From contig NC_007775.1 of assembly GCF_000013205.1 (NCBI RefSeq), positions 2,563,001-2,627,000 of the forward strand: 64,000 bases of DNA. Direction: 5' to 3'. Origin of the DNA: Synechococcus sp. JA-3-3Ab. GTDB taxonomy: Bacteria > Cyanobacteriota > Cyanobacteriia > Thermostichales > Thermostichaceae. The position numbers and the translations under genes are program-made. Below are positions 2,157 to 34,696 of this stretch, in pieces. The notes under the pieces are model-generated. The model made no database searches. It was not told where the DNA came from and saw nothing but the letters and a program-made list of their open reading frames with translations. Every line of letters begins with the position of its first letter. Within the stretch, counting starts at the first letter, position 1.

Positions 2157-6271
<4,115 letters not shown>

Positions 6272-6517
6272 GGTGTTTTCGCAGGAAAGATAGGAAAGTT
6301 AAGAACTGAACGTGCAAGGAAACAAAGTAGACAAAACCCCAGCAGCCACCCGATAGCCGGCTGTAGAAGCTACAAAACAAAGTCCACCGATCCCGACCGG
6401 CCCTCAGGTTTTTTCAGTATTTCTCCAGGTCAATAGGACTTGTTCAAGCTCAGCCCCTGCCAACCGCTGGACCGAAATTGAAAACCCAGAACCTGAGGGT
6501 GGGCCGACGTTGGTAGC

Positions 6518-7837
6518 CTACCGAGAATTGGAAGGATCCCCTTCCAATTCCCCCTCTGTTCGAGTCAATTCAGGAAACAGCGCTTCCAGTTTCGGCAGCA
6601 GATCCTGCAGCACAAAGCTCTCCAGAACTTCGCTGCGTAGAGATTTGGGTTTCATCTGCACATGGGCCACGTCGTTGCGGTATTCGCTCAGCCGAGACCA
6701 GAGCTTAGCTAGCTGCTGCACATCTGGGACATGGGCGGCAATGGGAGGCAGGGACTGAAGCTGCTCTTGGTGTTGGATAAGGGATCCAGTCGCAGGGAGA
6801 TCTCCCAAGAGCTGCTCTTCCCGCGGGATAAGGGATCCCAACTGGTGTTCAATTCCCTGCCGCGCTTCTCGTTCGAGGTAGTTTTGGATCCCCTCACAGA
6901 GGCAAAGGGCAGAAACCACCCACTCGCGGGCCAAGAGAAGGGCTTGGGTGGTGAAGCGCTTTTCAACATACCAGCGCAGCAGTTGAAAGTGCTTTTGAAC
7001 TTGCGCTTGGGGATCCGCCGCCTTTTCTGCCGGCAGCGCCAGTTGGCTGTAGCTATTTTGAATGCTTTGCAGCAGCAGGCCGAAGGGCTTGGCAAATTGG
7101 CCCACCTCTTCTGCCAACTCCTGGGTAGAGTGTCTTTGTAACTTGCGCAAGTCCTCCTGCAGGCTGACCGGCCTCACCAGCTCCAGAGAACGGGAGATGT
7201 CGCGGATGGCTTGTCCAAAGCTCTGCAGCCGGGTGGGCCTGGGATCCCCTTTGCCGGGCCTTTGCTGTCGGTAGAAGTCCCGTTGAACGGTGTCCAAAAG
7301 CTGGCCCAGCTCTACTGCCGAGCCGGTGCTGATGAACTTGTCGCTGGCCGTCAGCCAGTCCAGAAGCCGAATGGCCGGCGTGAGATCGATAATGGGGGTC
7401 TCCGCCTGGCCAGGGCGGTAGAGGCCGTAGTAGAGCCCCTGGATCTCGACATTTTTGGCCTTGCGCAAAAGGGCGGCTCCCAAGAGCACCAGCAGCGGGA
7501 TGGAGCGAAAGGCGTGGGTGATATCAAAAAGCAGCCGGCTGTTGGGCTCGATGCCATCGACCAGCACGTCGAAAATCTCCCAGGTCTCCGCTTCCGTTTT
7601 GCCCTCAGGAATGGCTTTGGCCACCTTCTCCACCTGGGGTGGCAAGGACTCCTGCAAGCGGCCCCAGTGCTTGGCGCGGGCCTCCTCCGTCAGCAGGAGG
7701 ATGATTCTATCAATTTCAAAGAGCTGGCAGAGGGCCTTGGCGACGTAGCAGGTTTTGTCTGCCCTTTGCTCCCCAAAGAAATACGTCGTCTCGGTGTAGT
7801 CGCCAGTGCCCAGGGTGGTCAAAAGGGTTTTAGCCAT
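6518..7837 (-). CDS. CARF-HEPN ancillary ribonuclease (Csx1/TM1812-like)
   Basis: I choose the ATG at 7837 (MAKTLLTTLGTGDY), preceded by GGAGG at proper spacing, giving 439 residues. The N-terminal half is a Rossmann-like CARF domain: TLLTTLGTGDYTETTY first strand, IILLLTEEA, then LFDITHAFRSIPL, matching the TM1812/Csx2 group. The C-terminal half is helical and carries the HEPN motif R-N-D-V-A-H (Arg387, His392). Proteins of this class are activated by cyclic oligoadenylate from Cas10 and then degrade RNA without sequence choice. It is the most upstream gene of the cmr cluster, with a 246-base gap before cmr2. The divergent Uma2 gene begins 178 bases away. Confidence 0.9.
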   Translation of the reverse strand: MAKTLLTTLGTGDYTETTYFFGEQRADKTCYVAKALCQLFEIDRIILLLTEEARAKHWGRLQESLPPQVEKVAKAIPEGKTEAETWEIFDVLVDGIEPNSRLLFDITHAFRSIPLLVLLGAALLRKAKNVEIQGLYYGLYRPGQAETPIIDLTPAIRLLDWLTASDKFISTGSAVELGQLLDTVQRDFYRQQRPGKGDPRPTRLQSFGQAIRDISRSLELVRPVSLQEDLRKLQRHSTQELAEEVGQFAKPFGLLLQSIQNSYSQLALPAEKAADPQAQVQKHFQLLRWYVEKRFTTQALLLAREWVVSALCLCEGIQNYLEREARQGIEHQLGSLIPREEQLLGDLPATGSLIQHQEQLQSLPPIAAHVPDVQQLAKLWSRLSEYRNDVAHVQMKPKSLRSEVLESFVLQDLLPKLEALFPELTRTEGELEGDPSNSR

Positions 7838-8015
7838 AGGGATCCTCCAGGTGGGTCTGCAACGCATCAAAGCACAACCGCTGGCAAGCTACCGCAACCT
7901 GGAAGCCCCCCCTTCCCAAAAACAAGAGGCCTTTTCCCGCGCAGTGAAGGCGAAAAACCCAAAGTTAGCCTAGAACTAGAAAGCAGTTGGCCTCTAGAAC
8001 GAGAGGGATCCTGGC

Positions 8016-8600
8016 ATGCTATCGACCGAAGAGCTGTCGATTGCTCATCCAAAACTTACTCCCGAACAGTTTCTCGCCTTGCCAGAGGAAGATACTACCT
8101 ATGAGCTGGTCAATGGACAAGCTGTTCCCAAAGATTTGCCGATGTCTCCTCAGAGATTTCATGCCTCTTTGCAGAAGCGGCTGCTTTTCATTCTGGATGC
8201 CTGGTGTCAAGGCAAGGGGGATGTGTACACAGAGCTGGCAGTTGTTTTGCAAAGGCAGGATCAAGATTGGCTTCCTGTTCCCGATTTGCTCTATGTTTCC
8301 TTTGAACGCTGGCCAGCGCAGCTTGAGGAAGACGGCCCTTGTCCCGTCGCTCCCGAACTGGTAGTGGAGATTCTTTCTCCCGGCCAGAGTTTTGGGGCTG
8401 TACTTCAAAAAGCAGCGGACTATCTGGAAGCTGGGATCCCTCGCGTTTGGGTTGTGGATCCCCAAGCCAAGAGCATCACCGTTTTCTACCCCGATGCCCC
8501 GCCGCGGACTTTTACGGGATCCCAAGCCATCCAAGATGAGTTTCTGCCCGGCTTGAAGGTTGTCCCCCAGGATGTGTTTGCCCAAGCGAGGATCCCTTAG
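8016..8600 (+). CDS. Uma2 family putative endonuclease
   Basis: The 194-residue protein begins MLSTEELSIAHPKLTPEQFLAL and has the complete Uma2 pattern: ELVNGQ, VPDLLYVS, PELVVEILSPGQSF, then Lys in LQKAADYLEAGIPRVWVVDP. The Glu and Lys match the D..E.K catalytic set of the PD-(D/E)XK fold. It is divergent from the CARF-HEPN gene and 27 bases upstream of another Uma2 gene. The two differ strongly in sequence, so they are not a recent duplication. Its role is unknown, as for the whole family. Confidence 0.88.
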   Translation: MLSTEELSIAHPKLTPEQFLALPEEDTTYELVNGQAVPKDLPMSPQRFHASLQKRLLFILDAWCQGKGDVYTELAVVLQRQDQDWLPVPDLLYVSFERWPAQLEEDGPCPVAPELVVEILSPGQSFGAVLQKAADYLEAGIPRVWVVDPQAKSITVFYPDAPPRTFTGSQAIQDEFLPGLKVVPQDVFAQARIP

Positions 8601-8627
8601 TTGTTTTAGCTATCTGAGAGGGCTACC

Positions 8628-9236
8628 ATGATTGAAGCTCTGGAAAGGCTAGCAAAGGAACCTGCCGAAAGCTCTGCAACAGCTTCTCGGAAGATTTGGA
8701 CTGATGAAGAGTTTATGGCTCTGCCCGATGATGGCAATTGCTATGAAGTTGTCGATGGGAAGCTGATTGCTTTGGGTTCGGCAAGTGCAAGGCATGGATA
8801 CTATGTAAGTTTGATTCACATCCTCCTAGGTGCCTATGTTCGCAGCCAAAAGATTGGCTTTACTTTTGACTCCGATACTTCGTTTAAGATGAAATCTGGC
8901 AATCGCCGCTCCCCAGATTGTTCTTTCTTCTCCAAGGAGCGGCTGCGATCTCTCGGCGGGATCCCCAAGGGCTATATCGAGGGAGCTCCAGACCTGGCTA
9001 TAGAGGTTCTCTCTGAGGCCAATACTGTAGGAGAGATCCACGACAAAATTGTCGAGTATTTTGAGAACGGATCCCGGCTTGTTTGGGTCATTCATCCCGA
9101 AGAAAAGTATGTTTTAGTCTACCGCCAGCCTGAGCCCGCAGCATTGAAGCGGCCAGGAGATATCCTGGAAGGCGAAGAGGTGATCCCTGGGTTTGCCTTG
9201 GATTTGTCAGAGTTTTTTGCCGAACCTGAGTTTTAG
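8628..9236 (+). CDS. Uma2 family putative endonuclease
   Basis: The 202-residue protein shows the Uma2 motifs YEVVDGKLIAL, SPDCSFFSKERL, PDLAIEVLSEANTV and DKIVEYFENGSRLVWVIHP, so the acidic pair and the Lys of the nuclease core are present. It follows the previous Uma2 gene by 27 bases and is probably cotranscribed with it. With the copy inside the cmr operon this makes three Uma2 genes in 9 kb around the Cmr module. Family-level function is undetermined. Confidence 0.88.
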   Translation: MIEALERLAKEPAESSATASRKIWTDEEFMALPDDGNCYEVVDGKLIALGSASARHGYYVSLIHILLGAYVRSQKIGFTFDSDTSFKMKSGNRRSPDCSFFSKERLRSLGGIPKGYIEGAPDLAIEVLSEANTVGEIHDKIVEYFENGSRLVWVIHPEEKYVLVYRQPEPAALKRPGDILEGEEVIPGFALDLSEFFAEPEF

Positions 9237-9312
9237 CTGTTTGCCAAGCTCGCAAGTCTTCCAGGGTTCCGCGGCACCTGGTAAACTGGCGCCAAAAACG
9301 GGATCCAATTTC

Positions 9313-9879
9313 ATGAGGCCGGTTTACCTGCAAGTTCTGGAGCGCAACCCCAGACGGCTGCGAATTGCCCTGCAAAGGTTTACCCCTGAGCAACTGGCCT
9401 GGCGGGTGGTGGCGGGTTTGGGGCTGTTGGCGCTGGGATCCCAGCTCTGGGGCCGCTCGCCGCTGGTGGGGTTGCTGGCCGTAGCAGCGGGCCTGGGGAT
9501 TGGGATCCCTTGGGGGCTGGGGCAGATCCTGAGCTTGGATCGGGAGCGGCAGCGAGCGACCCTGACCCGGCTGGGTGGCCCCTGGGGGCTTTGGCGGCAG
9601 CAGGTATTCTCTTATCCCCTCGCCCAATTGCAAGGGGTGCGGCTGCAGCGGCTGGGACAGGAGATCTTAGATGAGGAGGCGCGGGAGAGCTTTCAGATCC
9701 AAGCTCAGGTGCGGTTGCAGTTTCGCCGCGGCGCTTTTGAACAAAAGCTTGAAGAAAAATTTCAAGAAGAGGTTATTGCTTGCTTCAGCAGCCAATCGGC
9801 GATCAAAGAAGGCGAGCCGGAAGCGCTTACCCTGGCACAGCGGCTGGTGGGCTGGATCCAGGACTATCTTAACCTGTGA
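9313..9879 (+). CDS. Conserved hypothetical membrane protein
   Basis: I prefer the ATG at 9313 (MRPVYLQVLERNPRRLRIALQ), giving 188 residues; the frame is open further upstream but that overlaps the Uma2 stop. Two hydrophobic stretches, roughly residues 35-50 and 55-75, form a helical hairpin rich in Leu, Ala and Gly. The C-terminal half (LSLDRERQRATLTRLGG onward) looks like a PH-like cytosolic domain with a charged end. I do not recognise a function. It stands alone, 150 bases before the large sensor kinase. Confidence 0.7.
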   Translation: MRPVYLQVLERNPRRLRIALQRFTPEQLAWRVVAGLGLLALGSQLWGRSPLVGLLAVAAGLGIGIPWGLGQILSLDRERQRATLTRLGGPWGLWRQQVFSYPLAQLQGVRLQRLGQEILDEEARESFQIQAQVRLQFRRGAFEQKLEEKFQEEVIACFSSQSAIKEGEPEALTLAQRLVGWIQDYLNL

Positions 9880-10032: not shown

Positions 10033-13000
10033 ATGATCATTCCTTGGGAGACCATTGTTGAGGAAGCTTTGGGCAACTGGCCGTGGCTGCTTTTGTGGGC
10101 AGCCTGGCTCCTGGCGCTTGTCTTCTGGCAGAGGCGGCGGCCGCATCAGGCCCAGGTTGGTTTTCCCGATGTCATCATGCTGGCGCGGGCGGATACAACG
10201 GTGGTGGAGTGTAACGAGGCCTGCCAGAAGGTTTTCGGCAATTGGCAGGGCCGGCGCTGGATCGAGGCCTTGCCGCCAGAGGAGCAAGAGCAGGTGCGGC
10301 AGAAGATATCCCAGCTTACTCCTCAGCAGCCTACCTTTGCTTGGGCTCACCCCTTGTTCGATGCGGAAGGAAAGGTGCGGTGGTTTGAGTGGATCAACCA
10401 GGGCCTTTTCGACCGGCGGGGCCGCTTGCAGTTTATTCGCGGGGTGGGCCGAGACATTACCGAGAAGAAGCAACTGGAAGAAAATCTGCGCCTGCGGGAA
10501 GCCCAACTGAGGGCTCTTCTGGACGCCCTGCCGGCAGCCATATGGGCCAGGGATCCCCAGGGAGTGCTGATTTTGCAAAATGCCACCGACCGCGCCTGGT
10601 ATGGCGACCTGCTGGGCACTTCTCTGCAAGAGGCAGCGCAGCAACATCCCCACTGGCTGGAGTACACTGGGCAAGCCTTGTCTGACCTGGAGCGGCAAGG
10701 GTTTTCCCGATTGGAGAGCAAGGAAATCATCCAAGGCCAAGAGCGCTACACCTATCGCCTGGCTGTCAAGCTGCAGGATGAGTCCAAAGGTTTGGGATGG
10801 CTCGGCATTGTCTTCGATATTACCGAGCAAAAGCGGCTGGAACAACAACTGCGAGAACAACAGGAGCGCTTTCGCGCCTTCCTCGACAACAGCCACGACA
10901 TTTTGTGTTGGATCGATGCCCAAGGCTTGGTTCATACTCTCAATCGCCCGGTTACCGAGAAAGTCTTGGGTCGTTGTCCTGAGGAGGGAGAACCTATACC
11001 TCTGGATTGGGTTCACCCGGAAGATCGCCAGATCGTTGCCGACGCCCTTGAACAACTGAAGGCTCGGCCTGGCGAGACGCTCAGCTTTGTCTATCGGGCC
11101 CAGCATGCCGATGGCCACTGGGTGTGGCTGGAGAGCCGCTGCACCAACCTTTTACAGGATCCTTTAGTGCAGGGGATTGTGTGCAGCAGCCGCGACATTA
11201 CCCAACAAAAGCAGGTGGAACTAGCTTTGCGGGAAAGCGAAGCCCGCTTTCGGGAAATGGCCGAGGCTGTGCCGGTGAATTTCTTCGTCTGTTCCGCAGA
11301 TCTCAGCCAAGTTCTCTACAAAAGCCACCGGTGTCAAAGCATCTGGGGATACACACCGGAGGAGTTTTATCAAAAACCGGATCTATGGAAAGAAAGGCTT
11401 CACCCTGAAGATCTGCCCCGTGTTCTTCGATCTCTTCCTCGAGCTATTCGAGGGGAGCAGCCAATCACCTACCGCATCTTCCATCGAGATGGCAGCCTGC
11501 GCTGGTTACGCACTTCCTGTCAGCCTATTTTTAATGAGCGGCAAGAAATCATCCGCTTTGTAGGTGTTACGGAAGACATCACCGAGCAAAAAGAGGTGGA
11601 GCTGGCTCTACAAGAAAGTGAGGCTCGCCTTAGAGCTATTCTGGACAGGATCCCCTTTTCCATCTTCCTCAAAGACCTGGAGGGGCGCTATCTTCACGCC
11701 AACAGGTTTTATCTACAACAGAGAGGTTCTGAGCTAGGAGAACTTATTGGCAAGCTGGATGATGAGCTTTTCACTCCCGAAGAGGCCCGCGAGTTCCGAG
11801 AGCAGGATCAGAGAGCTCTCCAATCTCCGGATCCTGTCAGCTACGAGCGGATTTTTTCCCGCAATGGCAAGCAATTGAGCCAGTGGGTTACCAAATTTGC
11901 CCTGCGAGATTGCCAGGGGGATCCCTATGCCGTCTGTGGCGTTGTTGTGGACATAACTCCTCTTAAGCAGGCTCAGGATCTGTTGATGCAAGAAGCAGAG
12001 CGGGAGCGACTACTAGGGGCTTTGCTGCGGCGGATCCGACAAGCTCTAGACCTGCCAGTTATTTTGCAAACAACCACTGCCGAGGTGCGGGAGTTTCTCC
12101 AGGTGGATCGGGTAATGATCTACCAGTTGCAGGAGGGGGCAGGGGGGTTTGTGGCCGCTGAGTCAGTGGTGGATCCCTGGCCTAGTCACTTGGGCCGCTA
12201 CGTGTGGGATGAGTATTTCCACAGGGATCCCTGCCATCGCAAGTACCAGCAGGGCTTTGTGCAAGCCATCGAAAATGCGGCGACCGCCAGTTTGGATCCT
12301 TGCTATCGGCAGCTCTTGGAATCTTTCCAGGCCCAGGCCAACTTGGTGATCCCAATCCGACGGGGTGAAGACCTTTGGGGCCTCTTGGTGGCGCAGCACT
12401 GCCAATCCAGCCACCCGTGGCAGGAGTGGGAAATTGAGCTTTTGCAGAAGCTGACCGACCAGTTGGCTATCGCGTTGCAACAGGCTCAGTTGTACGAGCA
12501 GGTAAAAGCTCTAAAGCAAACGCTAGAAGAAAAAGTGCGGCAGCGCACTGCGGAGCTAGAGCGGGCTTTGCAATTTGAGGCTCTCCTAAGAAGCATTGCC
12601 AACCGCGTGCGCGATTCTCTCGACGAAGCTGAGATCCTCAGCGCCGCCGTGCGCGAGCTGGGAGAAAGTCTAGATGCCGATGGCTGCGATATCGGCCTTT
12701 ACAACGCCGATTTCACCCTTGCCACCATCCGCTACGAGTATTGCCCCCGCTCCGATTCTTATCTGAACCTCTCCATCCCTTTGCAGGGAGGGCCTTACGA
12801 AACCGTGTATCGACAATTAACTGCAGGGCAGCCTTGTCTATTTTGCTTCTTAGGGCGAGCCTCGGAAAACCGCCAGGTAGTAATGGCTTGTCCCTTGCTA
12901 GATAAAGGCCAAGTGCTGGGGGATCTGTGGATCTTTCGCTCGGCGGCGCGTCCTTTCGACGACCAGGAGATCCAACTTATCCAGCAGGTGGCCAACCAAT

Positions 13001-13749
13001 GTGCCATTGGGCTGCGGCAGGCGCGCCTGTTCCAGGCTGCCCAAGAGCAGGTGCAAGCCCTGGAGCGCCTCAACCGTCTCAAAGACGACTTCATCAGCAC
13101 CGTCAGCCACGAGCTGCGCACTCCCCTGGCCAGCCTGAAAATGGCCCTGAAAATGCTGCAGATAGCTCGCTCAGAGGAGAAACGAGCGCAATACTTCCTC
13201 ATTGCCGAGCGGGAGTGCCAGCGGGAGATCGAGCTCATCAACGACCTGCTGGATCTGCAGCGGCTGCAGGCGGAGGCCTATGCGCTGGAGGTGCAAGCCC
13301 TCACCTGGCGAGATCTGCTGGGGGATCTGCTGACGGTTACCCAAGAGCGGGCCCGCGCCAAGGGGCAGAGCTTTCAAGCCAGCGTCCCCCTAGAAAGCAC
13401 CATCACAACGGATCCCTTGCTGTTGCAACGTATCCTGCGGGAGCTGCTGCACAATGCTGTGAAATACACCCCGGCCCAGGGATCCATCCGCCTACGGGTA
13501 GAAACCGAAAACCGCCGCAGCATCGTCGAGGTCAGCAATAGCCAGCCGATCCCCGCCGAGGAGTTGACCCGCATCTTTGAGCGCTTTTACCGCATTCCCA
13601 GCAACGATCCTTGGAAGGAAGGGGGCACGGGTCTGGGCTTGGCCTTGGTGAAACAGATGGTGGATCAGTTGCGCGGATCCATCGAGGTGAGCAGCGCCGC
13701 CGGCTGGACAACCTTTACGCTTCACCTACCTCATCTGCCCCAACTTTGA
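10033..13749 (+). CDS. Multi-PAS, bilin-type GAF sensor histidine kinase
   Basis: The 1238-residue protein starts with one membrane helix (about residues 15-33). About five PAS/PAC modules follow, each ending in a DITEKK- or DITEQK-like linker (to ~650), then a GAF domain at ~670-820 of the phytochrome/cyanobacteriochrome kind and a second, weaker GAF (~855-1000). A HisKA segment has [11 protein letters not shown] (His1026) and a HATPase domain ends with GTGLGLALVKQMV. In the first GAF, Cys757 in LDPCYRQLL sits where bilin-binding Cys is found, although the following residue is Tyr instead of the usual His. No response regulator is adjacent. It is probably a light or redox sensor; the ligand is inferred. 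Confidence 0.92.
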   Translation: MIIPWETIVEEALGNWPWLLLWAAWLLALVFWQRRRPHQAQVGFPDVIMLARADTTVVECNEACQKVFGNWQGRRWIEALPPEEQEQVRQKISQLTPQQPTFAWAHPLFDAEGKVRWFEWINQGLFDRRGRLQFIRGVGRDITEKKQLEENLRLREAQLRALLDALPAAIWARDPQGVLILQNATDRAWYGDLLGTSLQEAAQQHPHWLEYTGQALSDLERQGFSRLESKEIIQGQERYTYRLAVKLQDESKGLGWLGIVFDITEQKRLEQQLREQQERFRAFLDNSHDILCWIDAQGLVHTLNRPVTEKVLGRCPEEGEPIPLDWVHPEDRQIVADALEQLKARPGETLSFVYRAQHADGHWVWLESRCTNLLQDPLVQGIVCSSRDITQQKQVELALRESEARFREMAEAVPVNFFVCSADLSQVLYKSHRCQSIWGYTPEEFYQKPDLWKERLHPEDLPRVLRSLPRAIRGEQPITYRIFHRDGSLRWLRTSCQPIFNERQEIIRFVGVTEDITEQKEVELALQESEARLRAILDRIPFSIFLKDLEGRYLHANRFYLQQRGSELGELIGKLDDELFTPEEAREFREQDQRALQSPDPVSYERIFSRNGKQLSQWVTKFALRDCQGDPYAVCGVVVDITPLKQAQDLLMQEAERERLLGALLRRIRQALDLPVILQTTTAEVREFLQVDRVMIYQLQEGAGGFVAAESVVDPWPSHLGRYVWDEYFHRDPCHRKYQQGFVQAIENAATASLDPCYRQLLESFQAQANLVIPIRRGEDLWGLLVAQHCQSSHPWQEWEIELLQKLTDQLAIALQQAQLYEQVKALKQTLEEKVRQRTAELERALQFEALLRSIANRVRDSLDEAEILSAAVRELGESLDADGCDIGLYNADFTLATIRYEYCPRSDSYLNLSIPLQGGPYETVYRQLTAGQPCLFCFLGRASENRQVVMACPLLDKGQVLGDLWIFRSAARPFDDQEIQLIQQVANQCAIGLRQARLFQAAQEQVQALERLNRLKDDFISTVSHELRTPLASLKMALKMLQIARSEEKRAQYFLIAERECQREIELINDLLDLQRLQAEAYALEVQALTWRDLLGDLLTVTQERARAKGQSFQASVPLESTITTDPLLLQRILRELLHNAVKYTPAQGSIRLRVETENRRSIVEVSNSQPIPAEELTRIFERFYRIPSNDPWKEGGTGLGLALVKQMVDQLRGSIEVSSAAGWTTFTLHLPHLPQL

Positions 13750-30698: not shown

Positions 30699-31769
30699 AT
30701 GTCTGCCCCACCCCTTCCCCTGCTTGGGCAATCCCTAGCTGCCTTGAAAGACTGGGCGGTTGAGCAAGGGCAGCCGGCCTACCGCGGCCAACAACTGCAC
30801 ACCTGGCTCTACCACAAAGGGATCCGCTCCCTGCAGGAGGTGACGGTCTTTCCCAAGGCCTGGCGCGAGGCGCTGCAAGAGTATCCCGTGGGGCGCTCCC
30901 AGGTGGTGCAGCGGATAGAATCCCGCGATGGCACGGTCAAGTTTTTGCTGCAGTTGGCGGATGGGGAGTTGATCGAGACGGTGGGGATCCCGACCGCCAG
31001 GCGGCTGACCGTCTGCGTCTCCTCCCAGGTGGGCTGCCCCATGGCCTGCAACTTCTGCGCCACCGGCAAGATGGGCTACCGGCGCAACCTCAAGCTGCAC
31101 GAAATTCTGGATCAGGTGTTAACGGTGCAGGAGGACTTTGGCCGCCGCGTCAGCCATGTGGTCTTCATGGGCATGGGCGAGCCCCTGCTCAACCGCGACA
31201 CGGTGGTGCAGGCCATCCGCAGCCTGAACCAAGATATCGGCATCGGCCAGCGGCACATCACCCTCTCCACCGTGGGCGTGCCCCGCCAAATCCCCTGGCT
31301 GGCCCAGCAGGATCTGCAAATTACCCTAGCCGTCAGCCTGCACGCCCCCAACCAGGAGCTGCGGCAGCAGTTGATCCCTTCCGCAGCCCACTACCCCCTG
31401 GACGCCCTTATTCAAGATTGCCGCGACTACATGCTCTGCAGCGGGCGGCGGATTAGCTTTGAGTATACGCTGCTGGCCGGGGTCAACGACCTGCCCATCC
31501 ATGCCCGTCAATTGGCCCACCTGCTGCGCCAGGCCAGCCAGGCGGGGGCACGCCTGCACGTCAACCTAATCCCATACAACCCCATTGCCGAGGCCGACTA
31601 TCAGCGCCCCCACCCGACGCGGGTGGCGGAGTTCGTCCGCCTGCTTGAAGAACACCACGTGCAGGTCAGCGTGCGCCAAACCCGCGGTCTGGATAGCAAC
31701 GCTGCCTGTGGCCAGTTGCGGGGATCCTTTTTGCGCGCTTCCCCTGAGCCGGCCCCTGGCCGTTCCTAG
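30699..31769 (+). CDS. rlmN: RlmN, 23S rRNA (A2503)/tRNA (A37) C2-methyltransferase
   Basis: I take the ATG at 30699 ([19 protein letters not shown]), giving 356 residues; the longer frame upstream reads through repeat sequence. It has the radical-SAM cluster motif [15 protein letters not shown] (CxxxCxxC), [11 protein letters not shown], and the catalytic Cys region near the C-terminus ([13 protein letters not shown]). RlmN methylates C2 of an adenine in 23S rRNA and tRNA through a Cys-methyl intermediate. Its stop overlaps the convergent sensor kinase stop in CTAG. Confidence 0.96.
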
Positions 31770-34696
31770 GCGGCGCCCGCAGGTTCAAGGCTTTTTGCAG
31801 TTGCTGCCGGCGGGGCAGAAGGGAGCCAAACGCGGAAATGGGTCCATCCTTCCAGGCTGCTGACGGAGATCCGGCCCCCCATGTGCTCCACCAGTTGCTT
31901 GACCAGGGACAGCCCCAGGCCGGTGCCGCCGTGCTTCCAGCGATCCGACTGCGGGATGCGGTAGAACTTCTCAAAGATGCGGGGCAGCTCCGCCTCTGGG
32001 ATCTCGCTGCTGTTGCTGCAGACGAAGAGGATCCCTTCTCCTTCCTGGGCCACCCGCAGGTGGATGGATCCCTCGGGGGCGGTGTACTTGATGGCATTGT
32101 GCAGCAGCTCGCGCAAAATGCGGCCCAGAGCCGTGGGATCCGCCTCAAGGGGTGGGATCCCCTCTTCCAGGTGCAGTTGCAGGTTTTGCTGTTTGCTCTG
32201 TGCCAGGGGCTGAGCTGCCGCCACCAGATCCCGCAAATAGCGCGGCAGGAAGATCTCTTCCGGCTGGAGCAGATACTTCTCGGCTGCCAGCCGCTGCATG
32301 TCCAGCAGGTCGTTGATCAGCTCAATTTGTCGGTTACACTCCTTGAGGGCAATGGCGAAATAGTGCTGCTGTTTCTCGGAGTTATTGTGGGCTATTTGCA
32401 ACATTTGCAGGGCCATGCGCACATTGGCCATGGGGGTGCGCAGCTCGTGGGAGACGGTGCTCAAAAAATCGTCCTTGAGCAGGTTGAGCCGCTCCAATTC
32501 CTTCACCTGGGCCTGGGCCGCCTCATACAGACGGGCCTGCCGCAGGGCCAGAGCACACAAGTTGGCCACCTGGTAGGCCAGTTGCCTTTCGGCTTCCGAA
32601 AACTCCTGCTGTCGCTCCACCAGCAACACCCCCAGCCGCTCTTGCTTGTCCCAAAGGGAGCAGGCCAAAAGCTGCACCCAGTGCCCGCCTTTTTCCTTTT
32701 GACAACAGCGGTGGACTTCCCAGGGCTGCTCGAGAAAAGCATGGGAGTGCAGCAGGTGCACCAGCTCAGGGTCGTTGAGATAGACGGGATCCGCCTCCTC
32801 CGGAAACGAGCAAGCCGGGATCCAGCCTGACCCCCCGGCGCCGGTCAAGAGAATGTGGCAGCCGCTTAGGTGGAGGGCTTCGGCCAGGCTCTTGACCACC
32901 TCTTCCAGGATCTCCCCCTCGTTGAGGCTGGCCACCATCTGGCCGCTGAGGGAGCGCAGCACCGCCTCAAAGCACAAAGCCTGCTGCAGCTTAGCGGTGC
33001 GCAGCGCCACTTGCGCTTCCAGCTCGCGGTTGAGGGCTTCTAGCTGCTGTTGGGCCCGCTTTTGCTCGGTGATCTCCCGCCCCACCGCCAGGATCTCCAC
33101 CAATTGGCCTTGGCTGTCGAAAATGCCCTGATCCACCCAGCTCACCCAGCGGGACTGGCCACTTTCGCCGGGGTACTCCCGCTCGCTGCGGTAGAAAGGA
33201 CGTTCAGGCGTAAGAGCCGCAAGAGACTGCAGCACCGCCTCCCGTTCTTGCGGCGGCAGAGAGTCCACCCAGCGCCTGCCTATTGTTTCTTCTGCCGAAC
33301 AACCAAAAAAGCGCAGGTAGGCAGGGTTGACATAGGTAATGCGGCTATCGGGCAAAGAGCGACAGATCAGCTCCGTCTGCTGCTCCACCACAGCGCGGTA
33401 CTGCTGCTGCTGTTGCCAGAGGCGATCCAACAGCGCCTGTTGGCTGGCCGCCGCCTGTTGCCAAGCCTTGGCCAGGGTCTGCACCTCCCAGATGGGGCCG
33501 GGATCCACAGGGGGCCAGGCCGGGATCCCAGTTTGCACAAATTGCTCCGCTATTTGGGTCAGGCGGCGCAGCGGGCGAGAGAGGGCTTCACTGAGGAGGA
33601 TCCCAGCTCCCAGAAAGCCCAGCAGCAGCCCCCCGCCCAAGAGGGCCGCCTGCTGAGTGCTGCGATAGACAGGGGCGAGAAGGATCTCCTCCGGGATCCC
33701 CTGTACGAAATAGAAACTCAGCCCCCCTTCATCCTGAATGGCCGTCACCTGTGCCAGATAACGGATCCTGTCCACCCTAAGGCGCAGCAGATCTTGCGAG
33801 GCCGCCGTCTCCCAGGATCCCACCTGCGCTTGCACAGCCAGCAGCAGCGGGTGGGGGGAGAGCTCCTCCGTGCCGGCCACCACCTGGCCCTCTTCATCCA
33901 GCAACCAGCTCACCCCCGGATACCCCAAGCTGACCTGCAGATCTTCCAGAAAAGCCTGCAGTTGCTGAGCCGAGAGAGCAGCCACCAGGCTGCCGTAAAC
34001 CCCGCCCTCCCCATCCGCCAAGGGCAGCGCCCTCAGGACCAGCCGCTCCGGCCTTTGATGGGGAGACTCGACAAAAAAGTTGCTCACCACCCAGGTACGG
34101 CGGGCCCCTTCCTGTTGCAGGACTGCGGGAAACCAAGACAGCCGCCGCAGATCCACAAAGCCCAATTGCCGCGTCAAGCCGGTGGGATCCCCGCTTTCCG
34201 GATCCCGTTGGCGGCCTTGGACGGATCCCGGCTTCAGGCCCGGCGTGTGGTAAGTCCAGATCGAGCCATCGGCGTGGCGGCGGGCCGTGATAAACCCCCC
34301 CTGCTCAGAGACAAAGCCGACATAGCTCAGCTCGGGAAACTGCTGCAACTGGCGGGCAAAATACGCTTCCAAGACTTCCAGATCGGGAGGCTGAGGAGCG
34401 GCCAGATTGGGCAACAGCCCCCAGCGCACCGCTCCCTCAGTGAGGGCATTGACCTGCAGGGGGGCCTGCAGATACCGGTGTAGGTTCTCCTCGGCTCGGT
34501 GGTTAACCTCACGCTTCAGGTGCTCGGCCAACTGCAGCGCCATCTGCCGCCCGGCTCGCCAGGAGAGGTAGCTCACCCCGCCCGCCCCCCCGGCCACCGC
34601 CAACAGCAGCGGCAACAGCAGCGCCACCTGCAAAGGGATCGACCGAGAAGCCAGGGAGGGCAAGCGCATCCGGGAAGCAATCGAGGAAAATAGCAT
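31766..34696 (-). CDS. Membrane sensor histidine kinase (Cache-like, PAS, GAF)
   Basis: The 976-residue protein has two membrane helices (~25-45 and ~345-365) around a ~300-residue periplasmic sensor of the double-Cache kind ([31 protein letters not shown]). Next come HAMP, a PAS domain ending in [14 protein letters not shown], a GAF domain, HisKA with [11 protein letters not shown] (His750) and a HATPase domain with [18 protein letters not shown]. Its C-terminal third resembles that of the kinase at 10033-13749, so the two are paralogues with different sensors. No partner regulator lies beside it. The ligand is unknown. Confidence 0.93.

Follow-up and report, generated by a model that had tools for sequence, protein, structure and literature searches.

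We analysed a stretch of 64,000 nucleotides from Synechococcus sp. JA-3-3Ab (NCBI RefSeq assembly GCF_000013205.1, contig NC_007775.1, positions 2,563,001 to 2,627,000), hereafter the window, for a sensor histidine kinase whose bilin-type GAF domain carries an additional conserved cysteine (Cys), Cys734. The kinase is encoded by an open reading frame (ORF) of 1238 amino acids (aa) at 10033-13749 on the forward strand, and all its domains given below lie on this strand. Domain calls with Pfam and NCBIfam agreed with a first-pass annotation, made from the sequence alone, that had described it as a five-PAS kinase. An N-terminal hydrophobic segment, recognised by eye, is followed by the PAS block (residues about 44-649, outer limits approximate; 10162-11979), in which PAS_4 and TIGR00229 each matched five stretches, by the bilin-type GAF domain (residues 673-815; 12049-12477), by a second, non-bilin GAF domain absent from that annotation (GAF_2, residues 863-994; 12619-13014), and by the HisKA phospho-acceptor domain (residues 1017-1081; 13081-13275) and HATPase_c (residues 1127-1234; 13411-13734). 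A PHY domain scored 13.9 bits, under the cut-off of 27, so the kinase has no phytochrome PHY domain. Orthologous ORFs of the genus have 1247, 1241, 996, 1114 and 1009 aa, and we would guess that the number of PAS domains varies among them.

The bilin-type GAF domain was called by Pfam and matched 6oap, 6mgh and TePixJ entries of the PDB. The top sequence match was the cyanobacteriochrome (CBCR)-bearing dual sensor kinase 6oap (E 3.4e-41), followed by miRFP670nano (6mgh), and a profile built on 28 relatives again ranked these as the first two. An AlphaFold2 model of residues 647-829 (mean predicted local distance difference test score (pLDDT) 91.1, predicted template modelling score 0.87) aligned with the bilin-loaded structures 6xhh (Z 24.6), 6oaq (Z 24.4), 3w2z (Z 23.9) and 6mgh (Z 23.8), and the first six Foldseek matches of the model were all chains of 6oap, 6oaq and 6ob8. 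The bacteriophytochrome 6t3l scored nearly as high (Z 23.7), so that the fold alone does not tell the two families apart; because the sequence rank and the missing PHY domain do separate them, we assign the domain to the CBCRs. An alignment of 28 sequences shows no variation at Asp726, at Cys757 or in the A-N-x3-P and W-G signatures, and Asp726, the pyrrole-nitrogen Asp, is also kept in all six genus members. At residue 748 (model position 102), where the family has a nearly invariant Asp, two of the 28 sequences, that of the window and L024, carry Asn. Every CBCR feature open to a check on sequence or model was found, and on this basis the first GAF domain is a cyanobacteriochrome. Covalent bilin binding is likely, because the sequence rank, the modelled fold, the conserved Cys, Asp and signatures and a bilin reductase gene (Fe_bilin_red) in the same genome all point to it. 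The first-pass annotation had left it at bilin binding with altered colour or no binding at all; binding is now favoured and the second half disfavoured, while a colour shift of this GAF domain is not deducible from the sequence.

Cys757 stands at the canonical bilin site, in LDPCYRQLL as annotated earlier, on a helix of the model at residues 756-764 (alpha4). It is followed by Tyr758 and not by His (12301-12306). This Cys-Tyr (CY) motif had been taken as unusual; the residue was read correctly, but its rarity did not hold. Among the 30 best-per-genome loci (L013-L042, picked by similarity to the query, window included), a count by eye gave 18 with CY; leaving out the genus members gives 12 of 24. 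A further set of 76 GAF domains (46 with CY, 29 with Cys at the helix column described below) was enriched by pattern searches and was not used as a background rate. A natural CBCR, NpF2164g5, carries the motif, and in SPI1085g3 both biliverdin binding and fluorescence rose when Cys-His (CH) was changed to CY (excerpts of PMC9378818). In the biliverdin-binding miRFP670nano, H87Y is among 18 substitutions and the residue stacks on the bilin (excerpt of PMC6336887). We therefore rejected CY as the anomaly of this domain, since it is frequent among relatives and has precedents among both natural and engineered CBCRs; by analogy, it is compatible with covalent binding. Of the other bilin-type GAF domains of the same genome (L007, L002 and L004), one belongs to a 1523-aa kinase and combines DPCF with CY, one lies in a 1036-aa ORF and combines DQCF with CH, and one, phytochrome-like, has DPCH and lies in an 841-aa ORF.

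The residues aligned with the DXCF motif of CBCRs are DEYF (residues 726-729; 12208-12219), with Tyr728 in the column of the DXCF Cys. Cys734 (12232-12234) lies in RDPCH, 23 residues upstream of Cys757 and outside the DXCF alignment, all as first annotated. In the model it is placed on a short helix (residues 733-739; 12229-12249; mean pLDDT of the model 91.1), which also bears Tyr738 and which we take as alpha3'. The alignment of 28 sequences puts Cys734 after a one-residue insertion and four residues before a conserved Tyr. The TePixJ sequence reads DPCFREHWVEAYRQG...ECH, and its W499 also stands four residues before this Tyr, which is why Cys734 is assigned to the W499 column. For TePixJ, the residues D492, C494, C522, H498 and W499 are named, and the B-ring propionate is described as hydrogen-bonded to H498 and W499 (excerpt of PMC6955287). 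By sequence and model, Cys734 would thus lie at the rim of the bilin pocket, beside the B ring.

Several known classes did not fit the domain. A DXCF CBCR was rejected, as the Cys of the motif is absent from DEYF; among six genus members G004 alone reads DECF. The WXDXXL motif of expanded red/green (XRG) CBCRs does not occur, VWDEYF having Val two residues before the Asp and Phe three after it. An insert-Cys CBCR was likewise rejected, there being no gap before Asp726 relative to 6oap or miRFP670nano. The insert Cys is placed, by residue numbers, in a loop ahead of the Asp motif (excerpt of PMC5240096). RDPCH as a shifted insert Cys (C-x-x-K at 734-737) was rejected too, as it lies after the Asp motif.

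Position 734 holds a Cys in each of the six genus genomes, window included (codons TGC, TGC, TGC, TGT, TGC and TGT), and so does position 757. In the same genomes the residue of the DXCF column is Y, C, H, S, Y and H; the DXC Cys is present in G004 and absent from the other five. Its codons are TAT, TGT, CAT and TCT, each one step from TAT. Since Cys is kept in six of six genomes with both of its codons in use while the DXCF column varies, the conservation of Cys734 is more than chance. The earlier annotation had rightly set RDPCH apart from the DXCF Cys without proposing a role for it, although it is the conserved feature in the genus while the DXCF column drifts. The GAF domains of the window and G004 differ by a nonsynonymous divergence (dN) of 0.091 against a synonymous divergence (dS) of 1.042, and dN is below dS in the genus wherever both could be estimated, many dS estimates being saturated and two undefined. 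The motif of Synechococcus sp. M44_DOE_062 is identical to that of G003. The analysis shows the sequence, conservation, column assignment and helix placement of Cys734.

The spread of the helix Cys was followed with two DNA patterns in 388 genomes of the class. The first (Cys, 3 residues, Tyr, 2 residues, Gly, 15 residues, Cys-His/Tyr, then A-N and P at fixed spacing) matched 38 places in 37 genomes, five of which belong to the genus itself; its reversed control gave no match in the 388 genomes. The second, which calls for an Asp twelve residues ahead of the conserved Tyr, gave 143 rows (a hand count) in 103 genomes. Inspection by eye set 96 of these aside, as their Cys falls on the fourth codon and so has standard spacing; the helix Cys occurs in none of the 96, and any such row would be among the 38 matches of the first pattern. 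In 22 of them a residue other than Asp stands second (DExCF and DAPCF types) and the Asp spacing is ambiguous. From the 47 retained rows four of standard spacing and one spurious row (G053b) were removed, leaving 42 insertion-type GAF domains, in which the Asp motif stands one residue further from the helix. The helix Cys is present in 22 of these 42 (for example DPCLVMADC, DPCLTNEAC and DPCFSLSPC), and 16 of the 25 that have the DXC Cys also have it as a third Cys. GAF domains of standard spacing gave 410 matches in 101 of 116 genomes (a hand-copied sum, from a subset of the 388 genomes that yielded the 42), and only two, in G022 and G077, were found to have the helix Cys on reading their motifs. 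G001 has the helix Cys but Trp in place of the Tyr, was missed by the patterns and is in neither count. The window clade has the insertion, the helix Cys and CY in common with most of this insertion-type group. Many GAF domains among L044-L122 (mostly Nostocales; for example L067 and L071) read like PPECFPDEYTRLY...CH and have no Asp two residues before the upstream Cys; judged from sequence, they seem to be a further variant in which a Cys lies close to the DXCF place.

Our preferred reading, held tentatively and as a whole somewhat short of probable, is that the first GAF domain is a phycocyanobilin (PCB)-binding CBCR from a variant group with three cysteines, and that Cys734 may serve there as a second Cys at a displaced position. 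The domain would belong to or resemble a group that carries the DXC Cys, a further Cys six residues later on alpha3' and mostly a CY site, and within the genus the helix Cys is kept and five of six species have no DXC Cys. PCB would be held covalently by Cys757. Light would isomerise its C15=C16 bond, a photoisomerisation established for the CBCR family. Cys734 could then add reversibly near C10, so that one photostate would be blue- or violet-shifted as in AM1_1186g2, and the signal would run via the linker and the second GAF domain to the kinase. Given that bilin is bound, a reaction of Cys734 with the chromophore, argued from analogy, comes close to an even prospect. A more far-reaching version is rather unlikely: that a reversible second thioether from a Cys of the W499 column on alpha3' constitutes undescribed photocycle chemistry, that an ancestor had three pocket thiols, and that in thermophilic Synechococcus species the helix thiol was kept while single-base changes switch the DXCF thiol on and off, so that sister species would see different colours with the same kinase.

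A number of observations weigh against the preferred reading. Adding the 22 rows of ambiguous spacing lowers the share with the helix Cys from 22/42 to 22/64. Of the 22 GAF domains with the third Cys, 16 still have the DXC Cys and so do not require the helix Cys as their sole second Cys. A tree with the motif columns removed left the order of the deep branches open. Forcing 18 third-Cys rows of a 39-row tree into one clade costs 8.04 log-likelihood units, and the approximately unbiased test (p-AU 0.316) neither rejects nor shows such a clade, which we therefore did not adopt. The same tree requires 10 changes of the third Cys, 7 of the insertion and 6 of CY, and convergence is therefore possible. 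Cys734 was placed by its column and by a helix of a chromophore-free model, not by a distance between Cys734 and C10; its counterpart W499 is reported, in the excerpt cited above, to touch the propionate and not C10. Photoconversion was undetected in miRFP670nano and in the natural CY CBCR, and CY accompanies fluorescence (excerpts of PMC9378818); by analogy, this GAF domain might bind bilin yet switch poorly.

The most serious alternative, a real possibility without being the probable outcome, is an ordinary single-Cys CBCR like those of the NpR3784 lineage, with PCB on Cys757 and a red/green-type photocycle that pocket residues tune, in which Cys734 replaces the usual Tyr or Trp and makes no bilin contact. 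VWDEYF of the window resembles VRDRYF of miRFP670nano and VEDQYF of 6oap. The NpR3784 lineage is described as having no DXCF Cys and a conserved Val in this motif (excerpt of PMC11284453), and both features, the Val standing two residues before the Asp, are found in the window. The stretch corresponding to that of Cys734 is free of Cys in 6oap and miRFP670nano, so this lineage manages without it. Such a CBCR leaves unexplained, however, why Cys734 is kept in six of six genus genomes amid changing neighbours and why it recurs in 37 of 388 genomes. Moreover, 6oap and miRFP670nano fall outside the genus clade in trees with poorly ordered deep branches, and the Val is found in five of six genus members, with Leu in G001. 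That the GAF domain no longer binds bilin and has a structural role or another small ligand is improbable: Asn748 would favour it, whereas the canonical Cys, Asp726 and pocket signatures invariant in 28 sequences, dN far under dS in the genus where estimable, and the bilin reductase gene of the genome argue against it. A thiol or redox switch would have Cys734 oxidised or paired with a partner thiol, which in relatives would be the DXC Cys six positions upstream, and would gate bilin chemistry or signalling according to the redox state of the cell. It would draw on the two thiols lying near each other in sequence at the pocket in 16 of 25 DXC-Cys insertion-type GAF domains, but is improbable, since five of six genus members have no DXC Cys to serve as partner and that pair is thus not the conserved function here; work on thiol or redox switching in CBCRs was not found among the literature matches listed, which speaks neither for nor against it.

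The preferred reading, a displaced second Cys on alpha3', would matter because the position of the second Cys helps to set the colours sensed by CBCRs and is a design handle for optogenetics. If reactive, the alpha3' Cys would add a further second-Cys site, kept across the genus and recurring in the 37 genomes. Sister species that differ in the DXCF codon and share the helix Cys offer a natural test of the role of each thiol, and given its extra pocket-side Cys the kinase of this hot-spring cyanobacterium may sense light slightly differently from its known relatives.

Around the kinase, two adjoining Uma2-family genes (8016-9236, forward strand) lie upstream, and an ORF at 9193-9879 without Pfam hit lies between this pair and the kinase. 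A Cmr2/Cas10-type gene (3278-6271, reverse strand) and a neighbour without Pfam hit (6518-7870, reverse strand) are probably a type III CRISPR locus (3278-7870). A histidine kinase paralog of 976 aa is found 18 kb downstream (31766-34696, reverse strand); it aligns with residues 821-1236 of the kinase (49% identity) and with residues 30-152, the bilin-type GAF domain lying outside the alignment.

Second-Cys sites of CBCRs in the excerpts of the literature at hand are the DXCF motif, the insert loop, helix alpha3 (AM1_1186g2) and the CXDXXL Cys. Among the literature matches listed and the excerpts at hand, mostly open-access, no description of a third Cys on helix alpha3' of CBCRs was found, which does not imply its absence from print, and none of this kinase in thermophilic Synechococcus, including the excerpt of PMC9953108. 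Compared with known systems, PPHK of Leptolyngbya JSC-1 (PMC11480761), a dual sensor histidine kinase CBCR with structures 6oap, 6oaq and 6ob8, is the best PDB sequence match and shares a VxDxYF-like motif and the same fold; it differs in having CH in place of CY, in lacking the one-residue insertion and in being free of Cys over the stretch that corresponds to Cys734. NpR3784 and its derivative miRFP670nano resemble the window in lacking the DXCF Cys and in the Val two residues before the Asp. CY is present in the derivative only, by the engineered H87Y; the wild type has CH, and both are without an extra alpha3' Cys and did not group with the genus clade in trees with poorly ordered deep branches. 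NpF2164g5 shares the Cys-Tyr site, as judged from its description and not its sequence, and is placed among the XRG CBCRs (PMC7504144). TePixJ, a DXCF CBCR with a blue/green photocycle, has the same fold and W499 in the column of Cys734, but also the DXCF Cys494, CH and no alpha3' Cys. A precedent is offered by AM1_1186g2, in which a second Cys in helix alpha3 drives a red/blue photocycle (excerpt of PMC6628166). Much as Cys734 is placed on the short helix taken as alpha3', this second thiol lies in helix alpha3; like Cys734, it is outside the DXCF motif and after a Pro (excerpt of PMC6628166). AM1_1186g2 differs in belonging to the XRG lineage and in having its Cys in a different column. By residue arithmetic, we take this Cys to be near the Tyr738 column, about four residues or one helical turn past Cys734.

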